Positions 266-32,543 of a DNA stretch of 42,995 bases are shown here, piece after piece (the first letter of the stretch is position 1; every line of letters begins with the position of its first letter). Under the pieces are notes generated by a model that saw nothing but the letters and a program-made list of their open reading frames with translations, searched no databases and was not told the origin of the DNA. Location: IMG/VR virus record IMGVR_UViG_3300037153_000610, positions 1 to 42,995 of that record; one strand, 5' to 3'. The DNA is from a virus. Position numbers and translations under genes: made by a program.

Positions 266-678
266 CAGGCGGCCTGCGGGAACGGCCGCGGCGCGGTGCC
301 GCTGCCGAGCAGCTCTTCGGCGGCGCGGCCCTCGAAGCGGAACTCGATCGACCCGTCGGTGGTGTCGAGCGGGTTCGCCTTCGTGCACCAGGCGTTGCGG
401 AGCACGTAGACCTTGCCGTTCAGCAGCTCGACGGTCACGGTCACGTTGCACATCGCCTGCAACTGTTCGATCGCCAGGTCTGGCGAGTCGGTGATCTTGC
501 CCTCGACAAAGGCGACCGCGGGGCGCTCGATGTAGCCGTGCACGCCGTCCTGGCCGATGACGGCTTCGCGCTCGAAGTTCGCCATCGACACCTTGATCTC
601 TGCCCGCGCGCGCAGCTGGCGGCCGTCCACGCGCAGGTAGACGACGCCAGCGACAACCGGGCAACTGGAATTTGCCAT
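265..678 (-). CDS. Phage tail tube protein (Mu gpM-like)
   Basis: A 137-residue protein lying directly after the sheath gene, which is the standard place for the inner tail tube of contractile tails. The start at 678 is preceded by a strong ribosome site (AGGAGGAGAAGG). The sequence has the features usual for this family: an early segment VVYLRVDGRQLRARAE, a central segment with ERPAVAFVEGKITDSPD, and a C-terminal half rich in beta strands ending with FRFEGRAAEELL. Such proteins stack as hexameric rings around the tape measure to form the DNA channel. It is coupled by a TGATG overlap to the chaperone gene. Mu-like tube proteins have a similar length. Confidence 0.85.
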   Translation of the reverse strand: MANSSCPVVAGVVYLRVDGRQLRARAEIKVSMANFEREAVIGQDGVHGYIERPAVAFVEGKITDSPDLAIEQLQAMCNVTVTVELLNGKVYVLRNAWCTKANPLDTTDGSIEFRFEGRAAEELLGSGTAPRPFPQAA

Positions 679-691
679 CGGCCTTCTCCTC

Positions 692-2203
692 CTAGGCCGC
701 CGCGGCGGTGGCCGACGACGGATACTGCAACCGGAACTGCACGAGCATCGCGAAGATGCGGAGCTGGTTGACGAGGTCCGGCGGGAACAGGACGTTCACG
801 CGATTCGGGTCCGTCGCGTCGCGCTCGACGACGAGGTAGGTCTTGAACGCGGTCATGTTCTCCGCGAGCGCCGCTTCCTCGAGCTCGCTGTAGAGGGCCA
901 CCAGCTCCGCCCGGATCGTGGACGGCGTGACGACCGACTGGCCGGCGCCGACGCGCGTGCCGTCGTCCGCGAGCTTCGCGCGCGGGAACTTCGACAGGAT
1001 GCGATTCCGCGTCTCGCGGACGATCAGCTGGAGCGTGGCCGGCGTCTGCACATCGAGCCAGGACGGATCCGCCAGGCCCCACGCATCGCGCTGGTACGTG
1101 GTGATCGACCGCTGGATGCGGACCACGTCGTCGGGGCCGGCGTAGCAGGTGGCAATGCCCGCGAAGAGCAGCGACTGGTCGTCCTGAATCGCGAACCGCT
1201 GGCCGCGCGGCGCGATGATCGTGCCGATCAGCGGGAGGGTCTGGAGCGGGCGCGCGGGATCAGCGCGGAGCCCGACCGCGGCCTCGGCCGTCAGCGCCGC
1301 GCACATCCGCCAGGGCGGCGTGGGCGAGCCTTCGGGATAGCCGAGAATCGTCATGTGCGGGTCGTTCCGCGTCTTCCCGAACGTGACGAGGTTCGACGCG
1401 GTGTCCGCGCGCGCGCTGAAGGCGTGGCCGTAGAGCTGGATATTCCACGCCCACCGGCCGCTGCCCTCGCCGAATGCCTCCTGGGAGGCGTCGAGGGTGG
1501 TCGGATCGGACCACGGAATGCCGACGAAGTCGTACTCCGCGTCCGCGAGCTGCGCGAGCGCGTCCGTGATGTCCGGGTCGCCGCTGCCGCCCGTGAACGG
1601 CGTCACTGTCACGGTGAGGCCGGCCGGCACGTACTCGCCGCCGACCAGGCCGCGGAGGTTGACGCCGACGAACGTCGCGTTGCCGATGGTCCCGGCCGAC
1701 CGCGCCGTCAGCGTGACGGCGCCCGCCGCCGCCGCGGCCGAGCACTGCGCGAACGGATCGGCCGCGATGGCCGCGGCGAGCGCCGTCGCGAGGGAATCCG
1801 CCGTGCTGGTCGTCGCGACCGGCACCGGATAGCGGCGATCGCCCACGTAGACGGCGACCGTGCCCGCCGCCGTCGCGGTGCCCGCGAACGTCAGCGTGCC
1901 GCTGGCCTTCGTCCCGGTCGGCTCCGGGACGGCGATGCACCACAGCTCGCCGGCCGGATCGTTCCGCCGGTAGACGTCCACCATGTCGGCCAGCATGGAG
2001 CCGCTGCCGAAGAGCGCCGCGGCGACGTCGGAGGACGACACCAGCGTGATCTCGTTCTCGTTCGCGGGGCCACCCGGCAGCTTGTGCCCGAGCAGGCACG
2101 CCGGCTGCGGCAGCTGGAGGTAACTCGCCTGCGTCGCGTCGAACTCCGCCCAGAAGAGCGGCACGCGCAGATTCGGCGGAATTCTGTTGAAGCTGACGGC
2201 CAT
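692..2203 (-). CDS. Contractile tail sheath protein (Mu gpL-like)
   Basis: A 503-residue protein followed immediately by the tube gene. Its N-terminus (MAVSFNRIPPNLRVPLFWAE) and the next stretch with LLGHKLPGGPA are typical of Mu-type sheaths, and the C-terminus has the conserved features around DPSWLDVQTPATL and NVLFPPDLVNQLRIFA. A variable inserted domain sits around residues 95-195. Sheath subunits form the outer contractile helix, and contraction drives the tube into the cell. The ATG at 2203 overlaps the stop of the upstream gene (TGATG), so I preferred it to longer versions of the frame. The length agrees with the family. This gene makes the phage a myovirus. Confidence 0.92.
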   Translation of the reverse strand: MAVSFNRIPPNLRVPLFWAEFDATQASYLQLPQPACLLGHKLPGGPANENEITLVSSSDVAAALFGSGSMLADMVDVYRRNDPAGELWCIAVPEPTGTKASGTLTFAGTATAAGTVAVYVGDRRYPVPVATTSTADSLATALAAAIAADPFAQCSAAAAAGAVTLTARSAGTIGNATFVGVNLRGLVGGEYVPAGLTVTVTPFTGGSGDPDITDALAQLADAEYDFVGIPWSDPTTLDASQEAFGEGSGRWAWNIQLYGHAFSARADTASNLVTFGKTRNDPHMTILGYPEGSPTPPWRMCAALTAEAAVGLRADPARPLQTLPLIGTIIAPRGQRFAIQDDQSLLFAGIATCYAGPDDVVRIQRSITTYQRDAWGLADPSWLDVQTPATLQLIVRETRNRILSKFPRAKLADDGTRVGAGQSVVTPSTIRAELVALYSELEEAALAENMTAFKTYLVVERDATDPNRVNVLFPPDLVNQLRIFAMLVQFRLQYPSSATAAAA

Positions 2204-2898
2204 CAGTGCGTCCTCCCCTCGGTCTCGGTCTCGCAAAGCAGCTCGTCGACCGGGCCGCCGGTGACCTTCGTGCGCGGGACCATGAACTCGACCTCGATGC
2301 GCCCGTCGGGGCCGGGGTAGCGGATGTTCGGATCCGCGGCCGGGTCGATCACGTCGACGTCGAAATGCAGGCGACAGAGGAAGTCCGGGATTACCGGGTC
2401 GTAGTTCCGGCCGAAGGTCAGGACGGCGTTGATGGTGCCGCCCATGGTGCGCCGGTCGGTATCCTCGACGCGGCCGAGCACGCCAGTCGTCTCCCACCGC
2501 TCGACGCCCTGGAACATCGCGCAGGAGTGGCCGTTGACGTGCAGCGTGTACCACGCCGGATTCGGCAGCAGCGCGTTCGTGATCTGCTCGCAGAGGTTGT
2601 CGAACGACTGCTGGCTGTCGACCATCAGGCGCGCGGCGGGCTCGAGGTCCTGCGCCACGGGCGTCTCCACGATGACGTCGATCGCCAGCTTCAGCGCGTA
2701 GCGGAACTGGAACGCGCCGACCACGCCGCCGTCGATGCCCTCGCCCGTTTCGTCGAGCGTGTAGACGCCGATCGCCGGCAGTGGCAGCTCGCGGCGGTAG
2801 GGAATGATCGGCGTCGGATAGACGCGGTCGCCCGCCGCGGTGCCCGCGGCCTTCAGCACGGCGACGGTGGCGAGACGGATGACGTGCCGGTCGAGCAT
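2203..2898 (-). CDS. Probable tail terminator/completion protein
   Basis: A 231-residue protein located between a head-tail joining protein and the sheath. In Mu-like phages this place holds the gp37/gp38 neck and tail terminator proteins. The protein starts MLDRHVIRLATVAVLKAAGT and has a conserved-looking core with YALKLAIDVIVETPV and a beta-rich C-terminus. The start at 2898 was chosen because longer versions of the frame run back into the previous coding sequence. No catalytic motif is visible. The terminator role (capping the tube and sheath and docking with the head) is inferred from gene order, not from sequence similarity that I can prove. Confidence 0.7.
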   Translation of the reverse strand: MLDRHVIRLATVAVLKAAGTAAGDRVYPTPIIPYRRELPLPAIGVYTLDETGEGIDGGVVGAFQFRYALKLAIDVIVETPVAQDLEPAARLMVDSQQSFDNLCEQITNALLPNPAWYTLHVNGHSCAMFQGVERWETTGVLGRVEDTDRRTMGGTINAVLTFGRNYDPVIPDFLCRLHFDVDVIDPAADPNIRYPGPDGRIEVEFMVPRTKVTGGPVDELLCETETEGRTH

Positions 2899-2902: not shown

Positions 2903-3343
2903 TCAGACCGGCTCGCCGCTGCTGTCCACAAAACGATACTTTGTCGGGACCGGCGTGGGCGACGGAATCGGCGCGGGCTCGTCGACGGGCGGCAGCGGGG
3001 CCGTGCTGCCTGGACCGACACGGAAGCAGCGGCACTTCACGTGCCCACCGCCGTCGGGCTCGACGTCGGAGACCTCCCAGCGCGCCCCGCGCGCCTCGAA
3101 CTGCCAGCCCTGCGCGGGCATCTCCGCGTTGGGCAGCTCGAGGATCCGAAAGCCGACCCAGGGCGCTTGGTTCGACAGCTCGACGCCGATCGCCAGGTCG
3201 GCGTGCGCGGGCGGCGAGTCGAAGATGCCGCGCACCGCGGCGCCCGCCGGATCGCCACCGGGGACGAAGAGCAGGACCGGCTCCGCGAACGCCCACATCT
3301 GGCGTTCGAGAGCCAGGTCCTGCTTGTTCCAGAAGCCGAGCAC
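2903..3343 (-). CDS. Head-tail joining protein (gpFII-like)
   Basis: A 146-residue protein with a GTG start at 3343. The N-terminal region (FAEPVLLFVPGG, then RGIFDSPPAHADLAIGVEL) resembles the gpFII-like head-tail attachment family, in which a short beta barrel attaches to the lower end of the portal. It lies between the capsid cement protein and the tail terminator, which fits that role. The last 35 residues are rich in proline (PPVDEPAPIPSPTPVP) and look like a flexible extension. I am fairly sure of the class and less sure of the exact family. Confidence 0.7.
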   Translation of the reverse strand: MLGFWNKQDLALERQMWAFAEPVLLFVPGGDPAGAAVRGIFDSPPAHADLAIGVELSNQAPWVGFRILELPNAEMPAQGWQFEARGARWEVSDVEPDGGGHVKCRCFRVGPGSTAPLPPVDEPAPIPSPTPVPTKYRFVDSSGEPV

Positions 3344-3347
3344 GGGA

Positions 3348-3695
3348 TCAGGCGGTGGACGCGACGAGCTTGACCCAGGACCGCGTCGCGTCGTCCGGCG
3401 ACACGCCTTCGGCCGCCGACGGCGAGCCGACGCAGTAGCCGATGACCTTGCCGCCCGTCGCCACGATCAGCTGCGTGGTCTCGTCGAAGCTGACGGCGGC
3501 GCCCTCGGTGAGGGTGACACCGCCGGTGCGCTTGAACGAGAACACGCCCTCGACCGAGATCTCGGCATCAGCGCCCGCCGCCACGTCCGTTCCGGCGACG
3601 CCGAACGCCTTGCCGACCACGACGCCGTCGCCCGATTTGAGCGCGCGCGGCGCCTTCAGCGTGACGGTGTTGCCCGGCTGTACGAAGTTCTGCAT
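3348..3695 (-). CDS. DUF2190-type capsid decoration/cement protein
   Basis: A 115-residue protein beginning MQNFVQPGNTVTLKAPRA. The pattern of a Gly/Val-rich beta domain with SGDGVVVGKAFGVA and a C-terminal region GYCVGSPSAAEG is that of the DUF2190 family, which is found after capsid genes in many phages and decorates or stabilises the capsid, like lambda gpD. It starts seven bases after the capsid gene ends, so the two are probably co-translated. No catalytic residues are expected in such a protein. Confidence 0.85.
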   Translation of the reverse strand: MQNFVQPGNTVTLKAPRALKSGDGVVVGKAFGVAGTDVAAGADAEISVEGVFSFKRTGGVTLTEGAAVSFDETTQLIVATGGKVIGYCVGSPSAAEGVSPDDATRSWVKLVASTA

Positions 3696-3701
3696 GGGGC
3701 G

Positions 3702-5873
3702 CTACTCCTTGTGCGCGCGCGCCGACGTGTGCGGCGTCGCGGCCTCCGTCTGCGCCATGGCCTCGAACCCCGTCGGCAGCGCGCCCGGGTTCTTCACCAG
3801 CCCGCGATAGTCGAGCGCCTTCGCGGCGAACTCCTCGCGCGCTTTGTACTCCTGGCCGTCGATGTCCCACCCTTCGCGCGTCTCCAGCGTGGGGCCGCCC
3901 GACGGCGCACCTTCCAGGTAGTCGTACTCGATAGTGTCCATCTGCGCGGGCGACGCGGCGAGATACCAGGACAGGTCGGTGATGCGTGGATCGACGACGA
4001 GCTGGAGCGACTTGTAGGCCGACGGCGTGACGTCGATGGCCGCCCCGACGATGGTGATCGGCGCCAGGAACTGGAGGGCGTAGAGCTCCTGCTGCGGGCC
4101 GACGATCAGGAACGCCGGCGTGATGCCGATGTACTGCCCGTCGGGCGACTTCTGGTTCATCATCGCGGCGCGCGCCGTGGCGACCGAGGCCACGTTGATC
4201 GGTGCCGCGGTCATCAGATTGCCGTGCTGCGTGGAGAACAGCGCGAAGCCGTCCGCCATGTTCGGATTGCCGGTGAGGATGCCGTACACCACGTCGCTTT
4301 CCATCTGCGCCGCCGAGTTGCCGAAGAGCTGCGGAATGCGGCTGAAGAGGCCGACGTCGTCGTTGATCATCGCCTCGCGGGTGAACGCGAGGATGCGGCC
4401 GTACTTGTCGAGCTTCATCGACTCCACGGGCGCGGTGGTCATCGGACCGCGGGTGTACTCGCCGTGCTCGTCGACCTTGATCATCTTCGGGCCGACGCCC
4501 ATCGAAATTTTGTAGGTCGGCCGGAAGTCCGGCAGCGTGCCCTGGCGGGTCCACTGCGGGAACGTGCGCGGCGCCACCGCATAGCCGGCGGTCAGCTGCG
4601 CGCGGCCGACCGTCGCGAGCAGCGCGGCGAAGTCCGAGGTCGAGAGGAAGCTGTGCGGCCCCTCGCGCACCATGCCGGGGCTCGTGAGCCCGAGCGCGAA
4701 GGCCGCCAGCTCCATCCGCCCCACGCCGCGCTGGCGGAAGCCGCGCGCCTCCAGGCACGCGCGCCCCATCTCCATCAGCGTGCGGCCGTGCCAATCGCGG
4801 GCCGCGTCGAGCAGCGCTGCGCGCCGATCCTCGGGCACGTGCGCCTTCAAGTGCATCTCGTGCGTGGCCGGCGCGATCCGCTGGAGCAGCGCGTGGAACA
4901 TGCCCTCGCGCATGCGGGTCAGGCCATCGGCGCCGATCTCGATCACGCTGCGGGAGACGGTCGGCTGTTGCCGCGCGCGCTCCGCGAGCACCGCCGTCCG
5001 CACGTCCGCGACGCTCGTGCCGTCGTCGATGAACGGGTCCGCGAACGTGTCGGGCAGGCCGCCCGCCCGCACCGCGTCGCGAATCTCGCGGATGCGTTTG
5101 CGTTCGTCGGCGCGGGCCGCGCCTTCGGTCTTGTCGTCCTCCGCGGGCTTCGGCGCCGGGGGCGGCAGGTCCTCTTCGCCCTCGTCGTCGGGCGGCTCGT
5201 GCTGCGGCTCGCCGGGCGGGCGTTCCTCGGCGCGCGTGCGGGCGCGCTTCCCTTTCGGCCGCTCGACCGTGGCGGTCGGATCGTCTGCGCCCATGAGAGA
5301 CCTCCCTGTGATCTGGCACGGGTAGCGCGTGCCGTCGGCGTCGCGGACCTGCGCGCCGGCATCGGCGGGGACCGCGACGAACGACAGCTCCGTGGGCTCC
5401 CAGCGCGTCGCGCGGTAGACGGGCGGCTCGCCCTTCCGCCGTTCCTGCCGCTCCAGCTCGTGTGTGATGTAGCCGACCGAGACGTTGCGGATGATGCCGT
5501 CTTTCACGTCGTGCCAGAGGGGCTCGACGTCCGGGCGGCTGGAGAACCGCACGCGCGCCACGCCGGCCCGCTGCGCGCCGCTGCCCTCGAGGTGCGCGTC
5601 CTCGACGACGCCGATGACGCCGTCCAGTCCCCAGCGATTGTGGCCGGCGAGCACCGGCGCGCCGTTCTGGAGTCGGCTCAGGTCAACCGCACCATCGTCG
5701 AGCGCCAGTTCCTCAAACCAGGGTTCGTCATCCCAGAACCCCATGCGCTGCACGCGCGCGCCGGTCGTCCAGATCAGCTCGACGGTGCGGGTGTCGGGCC
5801 GAATGGACGCCGGCGCGATCGCGGCCCGAGTGAAGCCGACCGGAATCGAAACCTGGCGCGCAGCGTCGCCCAT
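3702..5873 (-). CDS. Prohead protease / major capsid protein fusion
   Basis: One uninterrupted 723-codon frame encodes both the head maturation protease and the capsid protein. Residues 1-180 form the protease: the likely catalytic His is H78 (VLAGHNRWG), the likely Ser is S132 (RNVSVGYITHE), followed by the family's WEPTELSFVAVPADAGA. Residues 190-290 are acidic, proline-rich and coiled (scaffold-like delta domain). From about residue 290 on the sequence is a Mu-like/HK97-fold capsid subunit with segments such as ILAFTREAMINDD and FALFSTQHGNL. Self-cleavage is expected to release mature capsid. Fusions of this kind are known in other phages, so it is unusual but not unprecedented. I see no frameshift. 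Confidence 0.9.
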   Translation of the reverse strand: MGDAARQVSIPVGFTRAAIAPASIRPDTRTVELIWTTGARVQRMGFWDDEPWFEELALDDGAVDLSRLQNGAPVLAGHNRWGLDGVIGVVEDAHLEGSGAQRAGVARVRFSSRPDVEPLWHDVKDGIIRNVSVGYITHELERQERRKGEPPVYRATRWEPTELSFVAVPADAGAQVRDADGTRYPCQITGRSLMGADDPTATVERPKGKRARTRAEERPPGEPQHEPPDDEGEEDLPPPAPKPAEDDKTEGAARADERKRIREIRDAVRAGGLPDTFADPFIDDGTSVADVRTAVLAERARQQPTVSRSVIEIGADGLTRMREGMFHALLQRIAPATHEMHLKAHVPEDRRAALLDAARDWHGRTLMEMGRACLEARGFRQRGVGRMELAAFALGLTSPGMVREGPHSFLSTSDFAALLATVGRAQLTAGYAVAPRTFPQWTRQGTLPDFRPTYKISMGVGPKMIKVDEHGEYTRGPMTTAPVESMKLDKYGRILAFTREAMINDDVGLFSRIPQLFGNSAAQMESDVVYGILTGNPNMADGFALFSTQHGNLMTAAPINVASVATARAAMMNQKSPDGQYIGITPAFLIVGPQQELYALQFLAPITIVGAAIDVTPSAYKSLQLVVDPRITDLSWYLAASPAQMDTIEYDYLEGAPSGGPTLETREGWDIDGQEYKAREEFAAKALDYRGLVKNPGALPTGFEAMAQTEAATPHTSARAHKE

Positions 5874-5958
5874 TCCGCGCGCCGCGTCTCATGACGACGA
5901 CACGCAAGCAATGGACCTTGCATAGATTTCGTGACCCGACGGTGCTAGACGGTGCTCG

Positions 5959-6150
5959 ATGGACCAGCCGCCGGTGTCTCGCGACCGGATGATCGGGCTG
6001 ACGAAGGCGGCGCGCGACCTCGGCCTGGCGCACCGGACGTTGCGGCGCGCGGTATCGAGCGGCGAGCTACCGACCTACGTCTTCGGGCAGCGCGCGCGCG
6101 TCAAGGTGACCGACCTGCGCGCCTGGATCGAGCGCCACCGCCAGCGCTAG
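5959..6150 (+). CDS. Excisionase-like helix-turn-helix protein on the opposite strand
   Basis: A 63-residue protein with a classic excisionase/MerR-type winged helix: LTKAARDLGLAHRTLRRAVS, then ELPTYVF and VTDLRAWIERHRQR. It is the only plus-strand gene inside the minus-strand head operon, placed between portal and capsid. Its TAG stop (6148-6150) overlaps the TAG stop of the portal gene in the palindrome CTAG at 6147-6150. Start could be the ATG at 5959 or at 5989; neither has a clear ribosome site. Just upstream are two copies of GACGGTGCT (5938-5946, 5948-5956), spaced one helical turn. It may be a regulator or a lysogenic accessory gene; no partner is evident. Confidence 0.75.
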   Translation: MDQPPVSRDRMIGLTKAARDLGLAHRTLRRAVSSGELPTYVFGQRARVKVTDLRAWIERHRQR

Positions 6151-7706
6151 CCGGCGACGTCGTGCCCGTTCGTGAGCGGCCGACCGCGCGCGGGCGGCGG
6201 CGGTGGCGCGCCTGGGAGCGGCGGCTCGCCCGGCGCCGCGGCCGATTCGGCCGGCACGCCGGCGCCCTGCTTCGTCGTGCGGCGCGGGTCAATGTCGCTG
6301 ACCAGCTTCAAATCGTCGAGCATCTGCGCGAACTGCTGCCACTCGCGCAGAATCGTCTCCGGGTCATAGCCCAGCTCGCGGATCGCCTCTTGCGGCGACG
6401 TGAGCGTGGCGCGGACCGCGTCGATTACCGGCGTGGTCTCGCGTGCCGGATCGACCAGCGGGCGGCGCGGCGTGGTCCAGATCATGGACACGTTGCTCGT
6501 ATCGTAGCCGGCGATGCGCGCCCCATCGAGGAACCAGCCGAACACGCGGTCGCAGAAGCCGGGGATGATCACCTGCCACTGGAGTTCTTCGACGAGCGCG
6601 TAGTAGGCGCCGCGGCTCATGCGGCCCGACGAGAAGTTGAACTGCGAGAAGTCGCCCGACAGCTCTTCGTAGGGCACGCCGGTGCCCGCGGCGACGGCCT
6701 GGAGCCCGATCCGCATCACGTCCGCGTAGCCTTCGACGCCGGGCGGGCTCGCGAAGGTGACCTCGTAGCCGGGCGGCAGCTCTTCCACCATGCCCGGCTC
6801 GACGTGATCGCAGAGCGGGCTCTGGCGCGAGCGCGTGCCACCTTCGGGCGTCGAGTAGAAGGCCGCGAAGCACGCCGCGATCTTCTGCCGCACCTGATGC
6901 GCGTCCTTGCACTCGTCGAGGTCGCGGAGCGCGATCATGGCCGGCGCGAGCAGCGGACAGCCGCGCCCCTGGCCGGCGCGCTCCTCGTCAAAGATGTGTG
7001 CCACGTCCTCCGCGGACACGCGCGTCGGCGGCTGCATGCCGCGCATCCAGGCCCAGGCGTCGCCCGGATGGTACGGCAGCAACCAGTACGCCACCGGGCG
7101 GTCGTACTGGTCGTACTCGATGCCGGCGCAAATCCGGTGCCCGCCCAGCTCGAACTCGCGCGGGTAGAGCATCGCGTCGAGGTAGTCGGCCTCGAGGACC
7201 TGCACGCGGAAGCCGAGCGGCACGTCGGGGTCCCACACGCGGCGCGCGAGGACCTCGCCCGACTCGCAGAACGTCCGCGCGACGAGCCGCTGCAAGCCCG
7301 CAAACGACTGCTTGCCGCGCTGGTCCGCCGTCTGCGCGTCGGCCCAGGTCCCCCACAGCTGCTGGAGCGCCGACGCTGTCCGCTTGTTCTTGCCCGTGAT
7401 CGTGCCCGTCAGGCCGTAGCCGACGAGGCTCGACGCGAGCGCCCGCACCACGCGGCGCCCGTAGGGGTTGTTCCGCACGTGGTCGCGGCTGCGGTCGCGG
7501 AGCAGCGGCAGCGCCGTCGCCAGCTCCGTGTTGGCCGACGTGCCCGGCGCGACGCGCCAGCCCTCCATCCGCCGCGACTTGGCCGCGCCTTCGTAGTCGC
7601 GGACGGCGCCGAGCGCCACGCGGGCGCGCGACCGGCGCAGCGCGCGCATGGGCGACGCCCACGCGATCAGGCGGTCGAGCCGCGTCAGCGGAGGCGCGTC
7701 GGCCAT
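6147..7706 (-). CDS. Portal protein (lambda gpB family)
   Basis: A 519-residue portal protein. Typical family features are the N-terminal arginine-rich helix (MRALRRSRARVALGAVRDYEGA), the segment DHVRNNPYGRRVVRALA, the conserved EADYLD, and the region GVPYEELSGDFSQFNFSSGR that is a hallmark of lambda-type portals. Twelve subunits form the ring at one head vertex, through which DNA is packaged and ejected and to which terminase and connectors bind. The C-terminus is a proline-rich tail. It is preceded by two small connector-type genes and followed by the protease-capsid gene, as in lambda. Its ATG overlaps the last bases of the upstream gene. Confidence 0.95.
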   Translation of the reverse strand: MADAPPLTRLDRLIAWASPMRALRRSRARVALGAVRDYEGAAKSRRMEGWRVAPGTSANTELATALPLLRDRSRDHVRNNPYGRRVVRALASSLVGYGLTGTITGKNKRTASALQQLWGTWADAQTADQRGKQSFAGLQRLVARTFCESGEVLARRVWDPDVPLGFRVQVLEADYLDAMLYPREFELGGHRICAGIEYDQYDRPVAYWLLPYHPGDAWAWMRGMQPPTRVSAEDVAHIFDEERAGQGRGCPLLAPAMIALRDLDECKDAHQVRQKIAACFAAFYSTPEGGTRSRQSPLCDHVEPGMVEELPPGYEVTFASPPGVEGYADVMRIGLQAVAAGTGVPYEELSGDFSQFNFSSGRMSRGAYYALVEELQWQVIIPGFCDRVFGWFLDGARIAGYDTSNVSMIWTTPRRPLVDPARETTPVIDAVRATLTSPQEAIRELGYDPETILREWQQFAQMLDDLKLVSDIDPRRTTKQGAGVPAESAAAPGEPPLPGAPPPPPARGRPLTNGHDVAG

Positions 7707-7885
7707 CAGCTCGCCTTCGTGCGCTGCACGTAGTCCAGCAGGGCGGCGAGCACGGATGGTTCAAGGACGATCACGTTGGTGGCCCGGATGCCGTCCTCCG
7801 TGGTCAACACGAGATCGCCGTACTGGCTCCAATCGGCATACACCGCGTCACCGAGATATATCTTGCTGGGCGGTGCGGCGGCCAC
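7706..7885 (-). CDS. Small conserved phage protein (IYLGDAVYAD family)
   Basis: A 59-residue protein with a GTG start at 7885 that overlaps the TAG stop of the previous gene (TAGTG). The sequence reads SKIYLGDAVYADWSQYGDL, then LTTEDGIRATNVIVLEPSVL, which matches a widespread small protein family found in phages and prophages whose function is unknown to me. Its position between the gpW-like protein and the portal suggests a head or head-tail role, but members of this family also occur outside structural clusters. No enzyme motif is seen. Confidence 0.75.
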   Translation of the reverse strand: MAAAPPSKIYLGDAVYADWSQYGDLVLTTEDGIRATNVIVLEPSVLAALLDYVQRTKAS

Positions 7886-8241
7886 TAGCGCGCGCGCTCC
7901 CAATCGACGTCGGTGGTGCGCGTCGGATCGCACGGCGCGCCGCGCGAGAAGAGCACGTCCACGCCGGGAATCTCCTGGTGCTCGAGGGCGCCCCATCCGC
8001 CGTAGCCGGTGTTCAGCCCTTTCGAGAAGCACGCGCCGCGCCGGATCGGTGTGCCGCCTGGGAGGCCCAGGTTCGCCCGGCTCCAGTCCCACGCCTTCAG
8101 CAGGTCGCTGATCGAATGGAACTTGACGGAGCGGTCGGCGTAGTCGACCTGCTGCACGCCCGCGGCGATCGCTTGCGCCAGGCCCTGAATCAGCAGCTCG
8201 ACGACCTCGGGCGGCAGCAGCGTTCCATTCCCGTTCGCCAT
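7885..8241 (-). CDS. gpW-like head-tail connector
   Basis: A 118-residue protein. Residues 22-58 (AIAAGVQQVDYADRSVKFHS followed by ISDLLKAWDWSRANLGL) follow the gpW pattern: helix, short beta hairpin with a DRxVxxxS signature, helix. The usual gpW has about 70 residues, so the last 50 residues here are an extension. Lambda gpW is added to the filled head and makes the platform for tail binding. Location next to the portal supports the call. The assignment is based on a short pattern only, so other connector types are possible. Confidence 0.65.
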   Translation of the reverse strand: MANGNGTLLPPEVVELLIQGLAQAIAAGVQQVDYADRSVKFHSISDLLKAWDWSRANLGLPGGTPIRRGACFSKGLNTGYGGWGALEHQEIPGVDVLFSRGAPCDPTRTTDVDWERAR

Positions 8242-8277
8242 GAGCGGCCCCCTAGCATGCCGCGCGCGGCTTGTCTC

Positions 8278-8643
8278 CTAGCGCCGCCGATCCCGCGACG
8301 ACGACCGCCGCCACGTGACCGGCGGCCCCTTGGTCGGCGTCGGGACTATCTGCGCCGTCGGCGGCGGCGCCACCGTGCGATGGAACAGCCACTGGCCCTC
8401 TGGGCACCGCCAGTGCTCCTCCCACTGGCCGAGCTCGACGACACTCGGCTGGAGAGAAGCGAACTGCATCAGGCGCGCGCAGTGACGGCAGAGCGGCGGT
8501 GTGACGTCGTCGCTCCTGGCGGCCGCCTCAGCCTCGCGGCAGCGATCCAGGAGCTCCCGCGCCAGCCGTGCCTCGGCCTCGGCGATCCGCGCCGGCGTCA
8601 TGTGCGGGTTCTTGCCCCGGATGTCGCGCCATCGCGTCGTCAT
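8278..8643 (-). CDS. Small protein with helical N-terminus and possible zinc site
   Basis: A 121-residue protein. The first 45 residues (MTTRWRDIRGKN, then ARIAEAEARLARELLD) resemble the N-terminal helix of some antitoxins of the HigA/XRE type, but no helix-turn-helix follows. A Cys-His cluster (LCRHCARLMQF ... HWRCPEGQWLF) could bind zinc. The C-terminus is basic. The start codon overlaps the stop of the upstream gene (ATGA), so the two are translationally coupled. It is the last gene of the cargo block, 36 bases before the gpW-like gene. I do not recognise a function. Confidence 0.65.
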   Translation of the reverse strand: MTTRWRDIRGKNPHMTPARIAEAEARLARELLDRCREAEAAARSDDVTPPLCRHCARLMQFASLQPSVVELGQWEEHWRCPEGQWLFHRTVAPPPTAQIVPTPTKGPPVTWRRSSSRDRRR

Positions 8644-9488: not shown

Positions 9489-9848
9489 CTAGTCGTACAC
9501 GATCACGCAGTCGCCACGGATGCGCGTGCGGTGCCCGGCCGGGTCCCGGAAGGCGATGCCGCTCCAGCCGCGATCGACGGCGCCGTCCGAGCGGCCCTCG
9601 TAGATGAGCTGCCCGTTCGAGAAGCAGCGCACCGTGGCGGGCCCCAGTGCCGGGACCGCGGCCGTGAGCAGCCAGCCGAGCCCGAGGCCCGCGGCGATCG
9701 CGCCGAGCCCCATGGCGAGGACCCAGAGGAAGGGCGGAAGCGTGATCCGTCTTCGAGGGACCGCGGCGGCGGCCGCCTTCTGCGCGAGGTCCTCAGGCAC
9801 ATTGGCGGCGCGCAGCGCCTGATAGAGGTCCGCGTTGACGAGGGTCAT
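9489..9848 (-). CDS. Membrane-anchored small protein
   Basis: A 119-residue protein: a soluble helical N-terminus ([20 protein letters not shown]), one long hydrophobic segment at about residues 37-66 ([20 protein letters not shown]), and a small C-terminal domain with [19 protein letters not shown]. The membrane orientation is not clear. It overlaps the upstream gene by four bases (ATGA), so both are translated together. Single-span phage proteins in moron positions are often superinfection-exclusion factors, but nothing in the sequence proves that here. It has no detectable signal-peptide cleavage site. Confidence 0.7.
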
Positions 9849-10264
9849 TCTGGCGCAGCCGGCCACAAGAACCGGATGATGTCGAGCGTCTGGGCCGCCT
9901 CGTGACCGACGGCCAGGCGCTCGAGGCCGCCGCTGACCCGCGCGAGGCGGCGCTCGATCTCGGCCGCGTCGCCCGCGAGCACGGCCTCCGCAATCCTCTC
10001 GAGCTGTGCGGCGCCGTCCCGCTGCCGTGCGGCGGCCGTCCGGAGTGCCGCGGCGAGTCGCGCCGCGATGGTCTCATGGTCCCAGCCGGTCATGCGTGTT
10101 CCCTCCCTTGCGTCCCTGACGGCCGCGGGCTCCCAGGTCTCCAGGTTCCCGAGGACGATGTCGTTACAGAGGGCGATGCACTCGTTGCAGATCTGGACGT
10201 CCGGGCCAGCGATCAGCTTCCGCACGTCGCGGCGCGCCTTGCCGCAGAAGGAGCAGGCATCCAT
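9845..10264 (-). CDS. ClpX-type zinc-binding domain protein
   Basis: A 139-residue protein. Residues 1-38 copy the N-terminal zinc-binding domain of ClpX almost word for word: C4 and C7 (CSFCGK), the core [17 protein letters not shown] with C26 and C29, and ALCNDIV. The AAA+ ATPase part of ClpX is absent. In ClpX this domain dimerises and binds adaptors and some substrates. The rest is helical ([15 protein letters not shown] and so on). GGAGGG precedes the ATG at 10264. A second, very good ribosome site (GGGAGGG) precedes an in-frame ATG at 10093, so a shorter 82-residue product without the zinc domain may also be made. Confidence 0.82.
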
Positions 10265-10280: not shown

Positions 10281-10314
10281 GAGCGTCTACAATTTAGTTC
10301 AATTGTAGACGCTC
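10281..10314. repeat. 34-bp perfect inverted repeat
   Basis: Left arm GAGCGTCTACAATT (10281-10294), loop TAGTTC, right arm AATTGTAGACGCTC (10301-10314): 14 paired bases without mismatch. It covers the stop codon of the gene at 10294-10986 and the leader of the ClpX-domain gene. There is no T-run, so it is not a usual intrinsic terminator. It contains TACAAT on both strands. It could be an operator, an RNA hairpin controlling the next gene, or a recombination scar or site. Confidence 0.85.
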
Positions 10315-10986
10315 CCGCCAGCGTCGTTGCCGGGTCGTCTTCCCCGAAACCGGGCCGTTGAATCGCGGACGACCGGCGCCGCGTCGCGCGAGTCGCTCGC
10401 GGAGATAGCGCAGTTCGTCGCCGGAGTATCGCGACCGAAGCCGGGCGGCTTCGGCGTCGAGCGCGCGTCGGCGCGCGACCGGGAGATCGAGCGTCCGCGT
10501 TCGATAGTATTCGGCGCGCCCGCGCCCGGCCGGCGGCGCGTCTTTCGCGAGCGTGAGCCGATACGGCGAGACGGGCGCATTGAGTAGCGTCGGAGTCTTC
10601 CGGTCGCGTCGGAGCCAGCCGTGATGGCGTGCGAGATCGAGGAGCGAGACGCCGGCCGGTGCGCCCCACTGCTTGGCAGCAACGTCAATCGGGCGCCGGT
10701 GCGGGCCGGCCGGGTCGGTCATGGCGGCGGCGATCGTCCCGATCGTCTCGACCCGTGTCCACGTGAGGAGGCGCGCGACATCGCTGTAGTCGGCGCCACA
10801 GGCGATCAGGAAGTAGTCAAACTCGTGGGCGCGCCAGCGGTCATGCGACACGGCGGTCCGATAGTCGCGCCAGATACCGGACGCGAACATGGCGACGACC
10901 GTGTCGACGTAGGTTCCCATCCGGCTCGCGTTGCGGAGCGCCGACATGAAGCTCACAACGCCCTGACCGCGTCCGTCAAGCGCCAT
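10294..10986 (-). CDS. Unknown 230-residue cargo protein
   Basis: The start at 10986 overlaps the end of the helicase gene by 11 bases; a later ATG at 10947 is also possible. Visible features are a helical N-terminal half ([35 protein letters not shown]), a central segment with [20 protein letters not shown], and a very basic C-terminus ([23 protein letters not shown]) of a sort common in DNA-binding proteins. I do not recognise the family. Its close coupling to the HNH-helicase suggests that the two products work together. The stop codon sits in the 34-bp inverted repeat. Confidence 0.7.
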
Positions 10987-13132
10987 CGCCGTCGTCGAGG
11001 TCTTCCAAGTCGCGGTCGCTCGTGAGCCAGGTCGGGCGCGGGATGCCCGTCTGCTCGCAATAGGCCGCAATCCATCGCTCTGCGTGCGCGAGGGCCTGTC
11101 GGAGCTGCTTGGGTGTCGCCCGCGGACGGCCGCCGCGCCGCGGGAGCCCGGCGCGGGCGTTGCACTCGGCGACGAAATCATTGACCGCGATGCTCGTCAT
11201 GTTGAGCTTGGCCCAGCCCGCAGCCCGCTGGAGGCGCTCGCCGACGACCGCCGCGATGCCGGTCACGCCAAGTGGCGTCGTCTGGGGCGCGGCGTAGTGG
11301 CGCGGTGCCGGGGGCTCGGCCAGCGCGGCCTCCTCTGGCCGGACCGGACGAAAAGGATCCTCGTCGCGGTAGTCGCGCGCGCCGCGGCGTGCTGCCTGGA
11401 TGGCACGGAGCATGTAGGTCTCAGGAATGCCTGCCGCGCGAGCGTGGGGCTCAGCCGCCCGAATCAGTGCCGGCCTCACGCCCTCGTCGTCGTCGATGCC
11501 GGTCGCGAAGGCATTCTCCTCATCAATATCGCGGACGTCTTCGACCGCATAGCGCGGCGTCCGCCAATCGCAAGTAATGATGTCTTCGTCGTCGGGGCCT
11601 TGGCGACGGCGTTTCTCGTCGTCGTCGGGGCCCGGGCGTTCCTCGTCCTCGTCCGCGAACTCGTGGCGCATCGGGGCCAGGATGTTGCGGACCTTCTCGA
11701 TCACCTCCGGCACATCGGGAGCGATGACGGTCGCGACAATCGGATGTCGGCCCGGCGCGCGTTCGTACGCGGTCACTCGTTGCGCACGGGCGATGATCTG
11801 CCGCACATAGAGCTCCGACGTGATGGCCGTCGCATAGCCGATCACGGCGATCGACTCGCAATCGAATCCCTCCGAGACCATGTTGACAGTACAGAGGACG
11901 CCGGGACGCGCACTCTGCTTGAATGCCTCCAGCGCGGCTTTGCCGAGCGGGCCGTCGTCGGAGACGGCGACCGAACTCATCGATGTCCAGCCCCGCGCAC
12001 GGAGGAGCTCCGCGGCCGTGCGTTCGAGAAGCTTCGCGTGGTACTGCCGGCCCGCGACGATGAGCGCCTTCGCGTTCGTCTGCCGCTCGCCGAGGTCGCG
12101 GTAGGCGCGTTCGAGCCGGTCGAGGACATCGCCAACAAATCGTGCGCGCCATTCAGGCCGCTCCGGCAAGTCCTTCAGCACGGCGCGGCCGCCTGGGACG
12201 TTCAGCTCGGCGATCCGCGACACCGTGCGCGTCTCCCGCCAATCATCGCGGAGCGTCACGGTCGCGCCGACGCGGAAGAGATCGACGCGGCGGAGCTCAC
12301 CAGCATCGATCAGGTCGAGCGCGGTAATGTCATGGTCGACGTCCGACAGGATTCTGCCGTCGGCCTCGGTGACGTAGCGCACCGTCGCGATCCGCTCCGT
12401 GGTCTTCGAGCGCCAGAGCGTGCCGGAGAGATTCAGGACGCCCGCGACGGAGAGACCGACATCGACGGTCCCGACGAGCTGGCGGATCCAATGGGTCCAC
12501 CCCGGCAGCTGGCGCCCGACCCGTTCGCCGAGGTGGTGCACCTCATCGAGGATGACGAGGGTCGGCTTGTCCGCCGCCACGCATTGGTGGTTCCGGAGGC
12601 TCTTCGGCGTGAGCGATTGATACGTGACGACGACACCGTCTGTGCCGGGAAGCTCCTGCGCGACATCACGGTGGAGCTCGACGTGCCGCTGGCCGAGAAG
12701 TTTCTCGTGCCACTGGTCGACCAGCGTGCGATTGGGGACGAAAACGACGACGCGGTCGACGTGCCCGATGGCATAGAGCTGTTCGTAGACGAAACAGGCG
12801 AGGAGCGTCTTCCCGGCGCCGGGCGCCGCCGCGACGGTCGCCGCGCCACTCCGGACGATCCGTTCGACGATCGCCGGGATCGCCGCGCGCTGCCAGGCAC
12901 GCGGCACGACGCGCGGATCGCGGACGTCATGCGCGCCCTGGGCCCAGTTGCACGCGGCGCACCACGCTTCGAGATTGTCGACGATCGCCGGCCCGCCGTT
13001 CGCGTGCGCCCGGAGATGCGCGGCGTGGAACGTCTCGATCGCGATCGGGACGCCGCAGCGCTGGCAATGTCCGTCCGCACGCAGATAGAGCCACTCGCGA
13101 TCGGTCCGCGACAGCCGACGTCTCTCGGACAT
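10976..13132 (-). CDS. HNH nuclease-SF2 helicase fusion
   Basis: A 718-residue protein. Residues 20-70 are an HNH nuclease with two CxxC pairs (C23-C26, C58-C61) and HAAHLRAHANGG plus N53 between. Residues 76-470 are a superfamily 2 helicase of the ResIII/COG1061 type: Walker A PGAGKT (104-109), DEVHH (196-200), LSGTLWR (motif III-like), and motif VI YVRQIIARAQRVT. An acidic linker (about 485-520) leads to a C-terminal part of unknown fold with GRPRATPKQLRQALAHAERW. A strong site GGAGG lies before the ATG at 13132. The domain pair suggests a DNA translocase that cuts, as in restriction-like defence enzymes; a role in recombination is the alternative. Confidence 0.9.
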   Translation of the reverse strand: MSERRRLSRTDREWLYLRADGHCQRCGVPIAIETFHAAHLRAHANGGPAIVDNLEAWCAACNWAQGAHDVRDPRVVPRAWQRAAIPAIVERIVRSGAATVAAAPGAGKTLLACFVYEQLYAIGHVDRVVVFVPNRTLVDQWHEKLLGQRHVELHRDVAQELPGTDGVVVTYQSLTPKSLRNHQCVAADKPTLVILDEVHHLGERVGRQLPGWTHWIRQLVGTVDVGLSVAGVLNLSGTLWRSKTTERIATVRYVTEADGRILSDVDHDITALDLIDAGELRRVDLFRVGATVTLRDDWRETRTVSRIAELNVPGGRAVLKDLPERPEWRARFVGDVLDRLERAYRDLGERQTNAKALIVAGRQYHAKLLERTAAELLRARGWTSMSSVAVSDDGPLGKAALEAFKQSARPGVLCTVNMVSEGFDCESIAVIGYATAITSELYVRQIIARAQRVTAYERAPGRHPIVATVIAPDVPEVIEKVRNILAPMRHEFADEDEERPGPDDDEKRRRQGPDDEDIITCDWRTPRYAVEDVRDIDEENAFATGIDDDEGVRPALIRAAEPHARAAGIPETYMLRAIQAARRGARDYRDEDPFRPVRPEEAALAEPPAPRHYAAPQTTPLGVTGIAAVVGERLQRAAGWAKLNMTSIAVNDFVAECNARAGLPRRGGRPRATPKQLRQALAHAERWIAAYCEQTGIPRPTWLTSDRDLEDLDDGDGA

Positions 13133-13162
13133 CCCACGTCCTCCTCTTCAGCAACGGATCCA

Positions 13163-13183
13163 CGGAACGTTCCGAACGCTTCG
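13163..13183. promoter_or_regulatory. Palindromes before the helicase gene
   Basis: The perfect 12-base palindrome CGGAACGTTCCG (13163-13174) is followed by CGAA-cgc-TTCG (13173-13183). Both lie in the 79-base gap between the ribbon-helix-helix gene and the helicase gene. A small dimeric repressor such as the one encoded next door could bind here. Confidence 0.5.
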
Positions 13184-13211
13184 CCATTCGTCGCGCGCCA
13201 GCCGACGACCG

Positions 13212-13379
13212 CTACGCGGCGCGTCGCCGGGCGCGACGCCGCGGGAGACGAGCCAGTCGCTCCGCGAGCACGACGCGCACCCAGTTACTGACTGACCGAT
13301 CCTCGGCGCGGGCAGCCGCGCGCAGTCCCTCGAGGAGCTCACGCGGCATACGAACCAGCAGGCGCCTCTCGTCGGTCAC
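13212..13379 (-). CDS. Ribbon-helix-helix (Arc/CopG-like) regulator
   Basis: A 55-residue protein with GTG start at 13379 (ATG at 13349 possible). It has a beta strand RRLLVRMPRELLEGLRAAAR, then EDRSVSNWVRVVLAERLARL and a basic tail. This is the ribbon-helix-helix pattern: strand, helix, turn with SxSxW, helix. Such proteins bind operators as dimers and often act as antitoxins or autoregulators. A good promoter (13390-13419) would start transcription about four bases before the GTG, giving a leaderless mRNA. Its place in front of the helicase suggests that it controls that gene. Confidence 0.75.
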   Translation of the reverse strand: MTDERRLLVRMPRELLEGLRAAARAEDRSVSNWVRVVLAERLARLPRRRARRRAA

Positions 13380-13389
13380 ACTGGGGTCG

Positions 13390-13419
13390 ATCGTACGCCT
13401 CGATCCGGGGGGCGGTCAA
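13390..13419 (-). promoter_or_regulatory. Promoter of the RHH-helicase module
   Basis: Minus strand: -35 TTGACC (13419-13414), 18-base spacer, -10 TACGAT (13395-13390), with five and four of six consensus bases. It lies in the gap after the large terminase gene, so the cargo genes can be transcribed without the late operon promoter. Confidence 0.55.
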
Positions 13420-13426
13420 TGCGATC

Positions 13427-13448
13427 CTGTCGGTTTCGTGGCCGACAG
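13427..13448. repeat. Inverted repeat after the terminase gene
   Basis: CTGTCGG (13427-13433) and CCGACAG (13442-13448) are separated by eight bases. The hairpin lies between the terminase stop and the RHH promoter. It may be an operator or a weak transcription stop; there is no T-run. Confidence 0.5.
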
Positions 13449-17192: not shown

Positions 17193-17300
17193 CTAGCACG
17201 TCGTGGGCCAGCTCGCGATGGCGAAACGGACGTCGCCCATGAGCGCCCGCACGGTGCCGCGCAGCGCCGTCGGTCTGTGCTCGTGCTCCTCTCGGGTCAA
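17193..17300 (-). CDS. Possible very small protein
   Basis: A 35-codon frame with a TTG start overlapping the stop of the replication gene (TTGA). The product would begin TREEHEHRPTALRGTVRALM. Only the coupling and lack of other genes in the gap support it. There is no recognised motif. Confidence 0.25.
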   Translation of the reverse strand: MTREEHEHRPTALRGTVRALMGDVRFAIASWPTTC

Positions 17301-17998
17301 GCCTGCGAGATCTCCTGCGACCGCTTGGCCGCCGCCGCGGCGAGGATGTCGCCGAGCAGCGTGGGCGGCCCGCCGCGGGGGGGCAGTGGCGCCGCGCGGG
17401 CGGGCCCGCGGCGCATGCGCTGCGCGCTCCGGCCGGGCTCCGGGTCCCGCGCGCGCGTGCGGCCCTCGACCCTAGTCGCGCGCGCGCGCGCGTCCGGATC
17501 CGGATCTTTTTCTTCTATAGGGGAAGGGGAAGGGGAGGCGTCGTTAGTAACGGCGTTACCGACGGCGTTACAGCCGGCGTTACCGCCGCCGCCTGCGCGA
17601 TGCTTCTGCACTCGGGCTCGGCTGGCGGCGCGTCGCGCAAGGACCTGAACGCGCGAGGGATTGTACGTCAGGTAGTCGTGGATCTCCCATTCCTCGCCCC
17701 GGTCGTGCCACAGGCCAAGGGCTGCAAGATGAGCGGATATCGCCTGCACATCGGGCGCACGCGTTCGACACTTCCGTGCGCTACGCGTGCGCATTGGGAC
17801 GCCCGCATCGTTCCCCGGCGCCACGTAGACGCCGCTCAGGTTGAGCAAGCAGGCGACCTTGTGCTTCGGGAGCCGGCCGTCGGTGAGGTTCCGCGCGCAC
17901 CAGGAGATGGCCGCGGTATGGAGCAGCAGCCCGAGCGCGCCGGCCCGGCCGATCTTCCCGTTGTCGAGAATCGCGTCGTCGATCGCCGCCCAGGCCAT
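17297..17998 (-). CDS. Phage replication protein (replisome-organiser type)
   Basis: A 233-residue protein. The N-terminal 120 residues follow a pattern common to phage replication proteins: WAAIDDAILDNGKIGRAGA, then ISWCARNLTDGRLPKHKV and, near residue 100, LGLWHDRGEEWEIHDYLTYN with PSRVQVLARRA. This is a winged-helix N-terminal unit that usually precedes a DnaD-like or helicase-recruiting part. Here the second half is low-complexity and ends GDILAAAAAKRSQEISQA, so a folded second domain is not obvious. A HerA-type ATPase and RusA are in the same operon. Confidence 0.75.
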   Translation of the reverse strand: MAWAAIDDAILDNGKIGRAGALGLLLHTAAISWCARNLTDGRLPKHKVACLLNLSGVYVAPGNDAGVPMRTRSARKCRTRAPDVQAISAHLAALGLWHDRGEEWEIHDYLTYNPSRVQVLARRAASRARVQKHRAGGGGNAGCNAVGNAVTNDASPSPSPIEEKDPDPDARARATRVEGRTRARDPEPGRSAQRMRRGPARAAPLPPRGGPPTLLGDILAAAAAKRSQEISQA

Positions 17999-18004: not shown

Positions 18005-18244
18005 TCACCCCCCTGACGGCTCGCGGTTCTTCCCGCTGAAGCGGTCGCGCTCTTTGCAGGTCAGGAAGTGCGAGATCCACACCGACGGGCCGCGCTCGAC
18101 ACGCGGCGGCCGCCCGGGATCGCTCATCCCGGCCGCCTCGACGCGGTAGCTGTAGACCTGCTCGAGGGGGATGTCGGCCCCTGCCGGCGAGACCGCCCAG
18201 GTGATCGGGCGCCCGCAGCCCTTACAGGTCGCCGGCGCACTCAC
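18005..18244 (-). CDS. Small zinc-finger protein (CKGCGRPITWAV)
   Basis: A 79-residue protein that begins MSAPATCKGCGRPITWAVSP, followed by AGADIPLEQVY, and has a second part with a further Cys (SHFLTCKERDRF). CxxCGxPIxWAVTxxGxxxPLD is a common pattern in short phage proteins encoded in replication regions. It probably binds zinc and perhaps nucleic acid. It shares ATGA with the end of the ATPase gene, so it is translationally coupled. Confidence 0.75.
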   Translation of the reverse strand: MSAPATCKGCGRPITWAVSPAGADIPLEQVYSYRVEAAGMSDPGRPPRVERGPSVWISHFLTCKERDRFSGKNREPSGG

Positions 18245-19971
18245 GTGAAGAGCTCCTCGCTGGCACGCAGCTCGCCGCGGCCCTCGACGAGCTCGAGCGT
18301 CCGCAGCCGGCTCAAGTAGGTATCGAACGTGCCGCTGCGATCACTGAGCCCGGCGCGGGCCGCGAGCTCGGCCCGCGAGAGGGCCGCCGGGTACGCATCG
18401 GCGATGACGCGCAGCATGCGCGCCGCGCCGCTATGCCCGAGCTCGCTGAGCCAGTGCGCGAGCAATCCCTGACCCGTCGGCAACGGCTCGAACGCGCCCA
18501 GGGAGGCGACGCCGTCGGCGGTGATCGTCAACGCGCTCGCCGACCCGGTGATCCAGCCGGCCGCCCGGGCCCGGCTCAGGTACGTGTCGAACGTGCCGCT
18601 GCGACTCGACAGTCCCGCGCGGACGCCGAGCTGGCCCCGCGACAGGCCCTGGGGCCGCTGGGCGAGCGCGACGAGCATCCGCCGGAGTCCGCTCTGACCG
18701 ATGCGGAAGTGCGTGCGCGTCGCGGCCGGCGGGCCGCCGTTGGGCGCGGGGCGCGGGGGATATACCGCCGTAAGGGATGGTTTCAGAGTAGATCTCGCCG
18801 CCGTGTGGGCACGGTCGAGCAGCTGGGCGAGCGGCTCCCGCAGATCACTGAGGATGCCGGCGAACGTGCCGACCTGCGCGCGCGTGGTGTTGCTGAGCTC
18901 GCCCAGGCCGTCAACGCAACGATCGATCGCGGCCACGAGACGCTCCACCGTTCGCGTGTCCTGCTCGGAGAACACGGCCACCTCGACGCGCTGGGCCGGT
19001 GCCTGCGGCGGCCGGGCGGCGGCGCGCTCGAGCTCGGCGATCCGCTGGCGCAGCCGACGCGGATCGTTCGCCTTCGCCTGCTCGACGGTCGACGCAATCC
19101 GGCCCTTCAGCACCTCGAGGTCGACCGGCGCGAGCGCCTTCGGCTCGATCGGGTGCGCGTCGGCGGTCGGCGTCGCCGACGAGTCGAACGTCCGCCGGCG
19201 GCGGACCTTCACTTGCTTGAAGAGGTCGAGCCAGCCCGGCGACCACCACCAGGCCGTGCCGATCGGCAGCGACGGCAGTGACGCCATGAGCTGCTGGCGC
19301 TGCGCGGGCGTTCCGTGCACCTGGACCCAGGCGTCGATGGCGGCGCGGTCCTGCGGCGCGATCGTGCGGAGCGCGACGAGGACCTCGACCTGCGTGAGGA
19401 CGTCCTTGTTCAGCACGGCGGCGCGTTGCGTGACGAGCGAGACGCCGAGCCCGCGGGCCCGGCCGCGGCGGACGAGATCCTCGACCGCGCCGAGCATGCG
19501 TTCCTGGCCGCGCATCGGCCGCTGGGGGGCAAACGCATCCGCCTCGTCGAGCACGACGTGCAGCGGCGCGCGGTTCTTGTGGTAGAGGCGCTCGCAGAAG
19601 TCCGCCATGAAGCGGACCTGCGCGCCCTTCCGGAGGAGCGAGAGATCGAGGACCGCCGACTGCGCCTCGGCGATCAGCCAGTCGGCGATCGTCTCGCCGG
19701 CGGTCTCCTCGAGCGGCACATCGCCGTGGTCGCCGCCGAAGACGACGATCGGAATCCCGGGCCCGGTCCCGGCGGCGTTCGCCCGCAGGCCCCACGCGAC
19801 ACCGACGGGATCGGCGACGACGACGCGCTGGCCCGCGCCGAGGAGCTCCTCGACGAGCACCAGCGCGCAGTACGTCTTCCCGGCGCCTCGCTTGGCGAGG
19901 ATCCCGAACGTCTGCGAGACCGCCTCCAGCGGCAGCGCGAGCCCCGGCCCGATGGCGAGCGTGTGCGCCAT
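18241..19971 (-). CDS. HerA-type ATPase with two tandem winged-helix repeats
   Basis: A 576-residue protein. The ATPase (about residues 1-260) has Walker A KRGAGKT (27-33), Walker B VVLDEADAFAP (139-149), and a HerA-like sensor segment SLVTQRAAVLNKDVLTQVEV. HerA proteins form hexameric DNA translocases. Residues 425-576 contain two related units, each with GLSxRSGTFDTYLSRxR, which look like duplicated winged-helix DNA-binding domains; a helical linker with QRIAELERAAARPPQ lies between. No NurA nuclease is encoded nearby. Since no DnaB-type helicase is seen in the phage, it may serve replication or DNA processing. The ATG at 19971 lies two bases after the RusA stop. Confidence 0.85.
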   Translation of the reverse strand: MAHTLAIGPGLALPLEAVSQTFGILAKRGAGKTYCALVLVEELLGAGQRVVVADPVGVAWGLRANAAGTGPGIPIVVFGGDHGDVPLEETAGETIADWLIAEAQSAVLDLSLLRKGAQVRFMADFCERLYHKNRAPLHVVLDEADAFAPQRPMRGQERMLGAVEDLVRRGRARGLGVSLVTQRAAVLNKDVLTQVEVLVALRTIAPQDRAAIDAWVQVHGTPAQRQQLMASLPSLPIGTAWWWSPGWLDLFKQVKVRRRRTFDSSATPTADAHPIEPKALAPVDLEVLKGRIASTVEQAKANDPRRLRQRIAELERAAARPPQAPAQRVEVAVFSEQDTRTVERLVAAIDRCVDGLGELSNTTRAQVGTFAGILSDLREPLAQLLDRAHTAARSTLKPSLTAVYPPRPAPNGGPPAATRTHFRIGQSGLRRMLVALAQRPQGLSRGQLGVRAGLSSRSGTFDTYLSRARAAGWITGSASALTITADGVASLGAFEPLPTGQGLLAHWLSELGHSGAARMLRVIADAYPAALSRAELAARAGLSDRSGTFDTYLSRLRTLELVEGRGELRASEELFT

Positions 19972-27690: not shown

Positions 27691-27697
27691 CGTACCA

Positions 27698-28297: not shown

Positions 28298-28301
28298 CGC
28301 A

Positions 28302-28445: not shown

Positions 28446-28468
28446 CGTCGTCAGTCCCCTTTCCCGTT

Positions 28469-32540: not shown

Positions 32541-32543
32541 CGA

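Follow-up and report, generated by a model that had tools for sequence, protein, structure and literature searches.

The window analysed here is a whole virus record, from a soil-type phage (IMG/VR IMGVR_UViG_3300037153_000610; 42,995 bases), and all positions are those of this stretch. Its minus strand carries the TerS, TerL, portal, capsid/protease and tail sheath genes, and the window further encodes an integrase, a replication initiator, a HerA-like ATPase and a RecE-like exonuclease. TerL stops at 13473 and the portal gene starts at 7706. Between them lie an open reading frame (ORF) for a ribbon-helix-helix (RHH) protein, the gene of an HNH-SF2 protein (10976..13132, minus strand), a gene that we call orfB (10294..10986, minus strand) and several small genes. 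The HNH-SF2 protein has 718 aa, arranged as an N-terminal HNH-type zinc domain, a RadD/XPB-like SF2 motor and a C-terminal helical domain. The orfB product is a basic, mostly helical partner protein of 230 aa, and the 5' end of orfB shares 11 nt with the 3' end of the helicase gene. The data show that the HNH-SF2 gene and orfB are a conserved two-gene unit, that the HNH domain lacks a metal-binding residue and that relatives of the motor stand in CRISPR-Cas operons of actinobacteria.

Relatives were first sought by tblastn, which gave Saccharomonospora phage PIS 136 and Streptomyces plasmids; in each, a protein of 200-426 aa is encoded directly after the helicase. When the window protein alone served as query against viral contigs, no relative was found. 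An alignment query was needed, and it gave 80 viral loci. In most of these the next gene overlaps or abuts the helicase gene, and the post-helicase proteins link into one family of 69-70 loci that includes the window's orfB. The orfB product matches the protein encoded after the helicase in loci L009 (40%, E 3e-42), L010 (38%, E 3e-28), L011 (39%, E 5e-9) and L017 (27%, E 1.7e-4). With a second query, ten contigs of the window's subclade were found (three of them already known to us), and the helicase is followed by orfB in all ten. Dozens of uncultured phages carry the two genes together, as do actinobacterial plasmids and one cultured phage. Since PIS 136 is the one relative at E<=1e-5 in 50,697 phage records, annotated phage genomes give little context. 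Additionally, annotated starts lie too far downstream in JX006077.1 (PIS_093), NZ_CP108279.1 (OG593_RS00210) and NZ_CP102515.1 (NRK68_RS34120). In PIS 136, S. atratus and S. yangpuensis the HNH domain thereby falls wholly or partly outside the annotated gene, so that the HNH-helicase fusion is hidden in databases. In a limited search of open-access papers we found no description of the module or of the CRISPR-linked gene.

The original prediction, made from the sequence of the window, could not place the overlapping 230-residue protein, and our searches agree: orfB has no match in Pfam, PHROG, PADLOC or PDB sequences. Its AlphaFold2 (AF2) model is mostly helical, with a mean predicted local distance difference test score (pLDDT) of 77.5, and a fold search against solved structures was empty (best E 1.4). 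Pfam searches with 35 members of the partner family gave isolated weak matches only, one of them to HTH_23 at 3e-5. The products in L009-L011 have a helix-turn-helix (HTH)-like tail and we considered whether orfB is truncated, but this was rejected. L252 and L258 are also without the tail, so its presence varies.

The fusion of an HNH domain to a ResIII-type helicase, as originally predicted, is real (Pfam HNH E 5.9e-6, ResIII E 3e-16; DEAD was also matched). The motor core spans residues 76-475 (11708..12907, minus strand), as delimited by near-invariant columns in 28 homologues. It contains motif I PGAGKT (K108, T109), motif II DEVH (D196, E197), motif III SGT (residues 236-238, with G237 and T238) and motif VI (Q445, R449 and R452), and these residues are invariant or nearly so in the 28 homologues, which points to motor activity. 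With a seven-sequence profile the best PDB match of the motor is RadD (6jde, E 3.9e-18), followed by XPB. The AF2 model of the whole protein (pLDDT 82.7) also has RadD as its best Foldseek match (8h5y, E 2.9e-13). By analogy the HNH-SF2 protein may work like RadD. PADLOC 2023 gave only partial matches to the helicase domain (best PbeA, E 1.8e-11) and no full-length system component, and a DinG model matches the protein only in part, best over residues 76-144.

The HNH domain (residues 12-66; 12935..13099, minus strand) was delimited by alignments and column counts. It retains four Cys (C23, C26, C58 and C61), H39 and N53, but the metal-binding Asp is replaced. The codon at this position, which corresponds to D40 of EndoVII and D1020 of ZRANB3, encodes Ala38 (13019..13021, minus strand). 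In the window's subclade the position is Ala in ten phages and Ser in one (11/11 altered), whereas Asp is present in 28/28 other members, and the loss of Asp is fixed in the subclade. The Asp-altered group is one monophyletic clade in a tree of 48 rows (support 99/98). The general-base His (H39), the distal Asn (N53) and the four Cys are kept in all 11 subclade phages, and H39 is likewise present in 28/28 of the others. The original prediction had named H43 as the catalytic His, but the conserved residue is H39; H43 is found in only 4/11 subclade phages and 4/28 others. At matched motor divergence, HNH identity is approximately 50-52% in the Asp-altered group compared with 65-69% in the Asp group, which is consistent with a constraint on the domain that is relaxed yet not absent. 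The corresponding Asp-to-Ala changes have been studied elsewhere: T4 EndoVII D40A is inactive but retains DNA binding (PMC6083498), and D1020A abolishes cleavage by human ZRANB3 (PMC5481773). Because the Asp is replaced by Ala38 and this change inactivates both enzymes, cleavage has probably been lost in the window's protein. The earlier suggestion of an active HNH nuclease is therefore not borne out.

The pair appears to be an accessory insertion in the window. L169 is similar to the window in TerL (70% identity), portal (69%), capsid/protease (54%) and sheath (68%), and its TerL-portal gap is approximately 1.3 kb, an empty site, whereas that of the window measures 5.8 kb. Helicase and orfB were both undetected at 80/80 TerL-relative loci and in 15 whole records; these records may be fragments, so the empty answer is a weak one. 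The empty site in L169 and the lack of detection in TerL relatives suggest that a cassette was acquired between terminase and portal. Its absence from the window's nearest phages indicates that the pair is not essential to this phage type. The original prediction had considered that profile searches might place the protein among known replication or recombination helicases that are essential in the lytic cycle. The first part holds, as the phrog_16 'DNA helicase' profile matches the motor (E 2e-27, residues 72-562), but the pair's absence from the nearest phages speaks against the essential role.

Elsewhere the unit keeps other company. Among 68 genes at positions +2/+3 in relatives, matches to initiator families number 11 for phrog_9474, six for phrog_2447, six for phrog_3926 and five for phrog_2509 (these counts overlap). 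In distant relatives the +2/+3 genes often match replication initiators and some match primosomal families; an initiator directly follows the partner in 10/50 records, for which coordinates were compared by hand. Neighbours within the window's subclade include integrases, RecT, RusA and an exonuclease. There is no recurring function among the upstream neighbours of relatives.

The best bacterial match is in Saccharopolyspora kobensis (L089), where the HNH domain is altered as in the window's subclade. The L089 helicase gene is preceded by those for Cas4-Cas1, Cas2 and a DUF5343-like protein, whose Pfam match (E 9.8e-5) does not reach the curated cut-off; a CRISPR array and Cmr-type genes lie downstream. 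Subclade members (E<=1e-100) were found in 9/392 genomes of the actinobacterial family of L089, in 4/399 genomes of an order sample and in 1/395 of a class sample, and the three genome sets overlap. The order Cas4-Cas1, Cas2, DUF5343, helicase occurs in six of the nine chromosomal members of the family (L089, at 3228-8290, and L271, L272, L273, L279 and L282), with repeat arrays nearby; in four of these (L089, L271, L272 and L282) Cmr-type genes also appear within the stretch that was read. In two of the remaining three members the helicase is followed by, or fused to, an orfB homologue, and the third has neither the cas order nor orfB. In the apparent fusion, L283 (7490-10180, minus strand), a single open frame spans the helicase and the orfB homologue, and the HNH domain is further decayed (His and Asn lost); we have not used this fusion as evidence because its odd linker looks out of frame and may be a frameshift. 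A putative partner in L089 was rejected as a translated CRISPR array.

In a helicase tree of 20 rows, from which the cas-linked L272 is missing because the search pattern did not recognise its Walker motif, the cas-linked members are one clade (100/98) nested in partner-bearing lineages (81/81, 90/91 and 100/97). This topology suggests that the phage module came first; orfB would then have been lost and the motor recruited to cas operons. We tentatively propose, at somewhat less than even chances, that a cleavage-dead RadD-like phage motor was recruited to CRISPR adaptation operons as a new accessory in making or inserting spacers, the phage partner being lost. A limited search of the open-access literature found no paper tying DUF5343 to CRISPR. 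The proteins of the window that were scanned gave no match to a cas family.

The pair resembles several known systems in part. RadD (YejH) is an E. coli DNA-repair SF2 protein. It accelerates RecA strand exchange (PMC8887467). RadD is the best solved match of the window's motor both by profile and by fold, but identity is approximately 18% over 420 aligned columns, RadD has no N-terminal HNH in the aligned region and its zinc ribbon is not apparent in the window's protein; the window's motor additionally has a phage partner gene. Human ZRANB3, an ATP-dependent structure-specific endonuclease at stalled replication forks, also joins an SF2 motor to an EndoVII-like HNH domain with four Cys in a single polypeptide, and the same paper mentions bacterial ZRANB3-like proteins (PMC5481773). 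It differs in its SNF2 motor and in a C-terminal HNH domain that needs D1020 for cleavage (PMC5481773), whereas in the window's protein the HNH domain comes first and has Ala. The PIS_093/PIS_094 genes of PIS 136 belong to the same family and have the same two-gene order, with an HNH domain once the start is extended upstream; however, the Asp is kept (WHADH), identity is 27.7%, there is no RHH gene and the pair lies in the early region. The cas-operon protein of S. kobensis is of the same subclade, is 33-36% identical to the window's protein and also has Ala at the Asp position, but it is chromosomal and CRISPR-linked, lacks orfB and has a shorter C-terminus. DinG-HNH of type IV-A2 CRISPR systems is another SF2 motor with an HNH domain that works with a CRISPR system (PMC10910872). 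DinG-HNH has a DinG motor, a C-terminal active HNH domain and a role in interference, in contrast with the cas-linked HNH-SF2 proteins, which have a RadD-like motor, an impaired N-terminal HNH domain and adjoining adaptation genes.

The original prediction described a three-gene system that included the RHH gene. The small ORF itself is confirmed (13212..13379, minus strand; 55 aa, GTG start, Arc/CopG-type; Arc E 7e-5, RHH_1 E 1.4e-4), but no RHH homologue was found at the module loci of relatives that were scanned, and the conserved unit therefore comprises two genes. The RHH gene is accessory and not conserved with the module, and it has no PADLOC match. Upstream of it there is the predicted sigma-70-like promoter TTGACC-N18-TACGAT (13390..13419, minus strand), identified by consensus match only (9/12 positions); two such sites occur in the region compared with 0.3 expected. 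The palindrome pair described before the helicase proved to be one 12-bp palindrome, CGGAACGTTCCG, between RHH and helicase (13163..13174). It is possibly an operator, but its occurrence is near chance and statistically unremarkable, with 44 palindromes of 12 bp in the window and approximately 0.08 expected in the RHH-helicase gap. A feature missed earlier is a perfect inverted repeat with 14-bp arms and a 6-nt loop that overlaps the orfB stop (10281..10314). No other inverted repeat of the window combines perfect arms of this length with a loop of 3-10 nt, and this one folds far better than shuffled sequences (z -4.5); it is a candidate terminator or operator and has no U tract.

Taken together, these data lead us to favour, with slightly better than even confidence, an accessory phage module that processes recombination or replication DNA. 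The EndoVII-type zinc domain, its cleavage probably lost, would grip branched DNA or DNA ends, and the orfB protein would work with the motor in a complex, in which it would probably serve for DNA targeting or loading. Motor and partner would then act on phage DNA by remodelling its recombination or replication intermediates. The pair would have been inserted between terminase and portal, after the RHH gene and promoter-like site and before the strong hairpin. Several observations weigh against this reading. Conservation of H39 and N53 is unexpected in an HNH domain that only binds DNA. The window's pair adjoins late genes, outside the replication block, and the link to initiators comes mainly from Asp-bearing and HNH-less lineages and not from the window's subclade. 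The AF2 model of the partner is partly of low confidence and matched no fold. Finally, inspection of the HNH-SF2 sequence shows no CxxC pair after residue 61; as the C-terminal zinc ribbon of RadD is thus not apparent, we do not file the protein as RadD.

The original prediction likened the locus to anti-phage systems, and subclade members do stand in cas operons and the window's pair is not a catalogued system in PADLOC, but defence by the window's own copy is unsupported. In such a role the pair would be a temperate-phage moron for superinfection exclusion, with RHH holding the promoter at a low level and helicase and orfB attacking incoming DNA. The insertion in the late operon, the promoter-like site, the flanking hairpin, the integrase, the sister lineage fixed in CRISPR-Cas operons and a preQ0-type cassette near the same genes in the close relative L170 would all fit, and the insertion and the cas-linked lineage keep this role in play. 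We nevertheless consider it unlikely, since the HNH domain is probably cleavage-dead, PADLOC gives no system match, the RHH gene is not conserved, no self/non-self component is seen and many homologous pairs adjoin replication initiators or recombination genes. A packaging aid comparable to the terminase-linked HNH proteins of some phages, resolving concatemer branches ahead of the terminase, seems less probable still. The pair lies directly downstream of TerL in the window, in L009 and L011 it is close to TerL on the upstream side, and the zinc domain is of EndoVII type; however, the cleavage residue is missing, most homologues are not beside a terminase and the pair is absent from the neighbourhoods of the 80 TerL relatives examined and from 15 whole records. 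We give very little credence to a selfish mobile element, a homing-type HNH endonuclease gene that would have picked up helicase and regulator genes. An HNH domain, patchy presence and insertion between conserved phage genes would be expected of such an element, but not the missing catalytic Asp, the conserved second gene and motor motifs or the recruitment into cas operons.

The proposed DNA-processing module is widespread in phages but almost uncultured, and it is linked to CRISPR spacer acquisition. It is also a natural experiment, since its nuclease domain was retained after the metal ligand had been lost. If the proposed role is true, comparison of the phage pair with the cas-linked version could reveal how a RadD-like motor helps in recombination and in the capture of spacers. 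Additionally, orfB represents an orphan protein family whose function could be tested together with its motor.

Other genes of the window and its relatives deserve brief mention. Directly after orfB is a gene with a ClpX-type C4 zinc finger (9845-10264, minus strand; Pfam E 5.2e-17), which was not seen in the TerL relatives examined. Upstream of the terminase genes lie the HerA-like ATPase and the replication initiator (phrog_2447) (18241-19971 and 17297-17998, minus strand); in the subclade locus L011 a large gene matches phrog_2666, the same family as in this region of the window. The gene of the RecE-like exonuclease (phrog_434) and its downstream neighbour lie at 24633-26389 (plus strand); the neighbour encodes a 285-aa protein of phrog_3657 that may be the annealing partner of the exonuclease. 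In L170, whose TerL is 79% identical to that of the window, the preQ0/7-deazaguanine-type cassette (4389-8463) lies directly upstream of TerS and encodes, by sequence reading, QueC-, QueD-, QueE-, FolE-, ParB- and TGT-like proteins. Finally, tail genes run off the left end of the window (1-2554) and resume at the right (27338-42995) on the same strand. Given this continuity across both ends, the record may represent an almost complete phage genome in permuted form.

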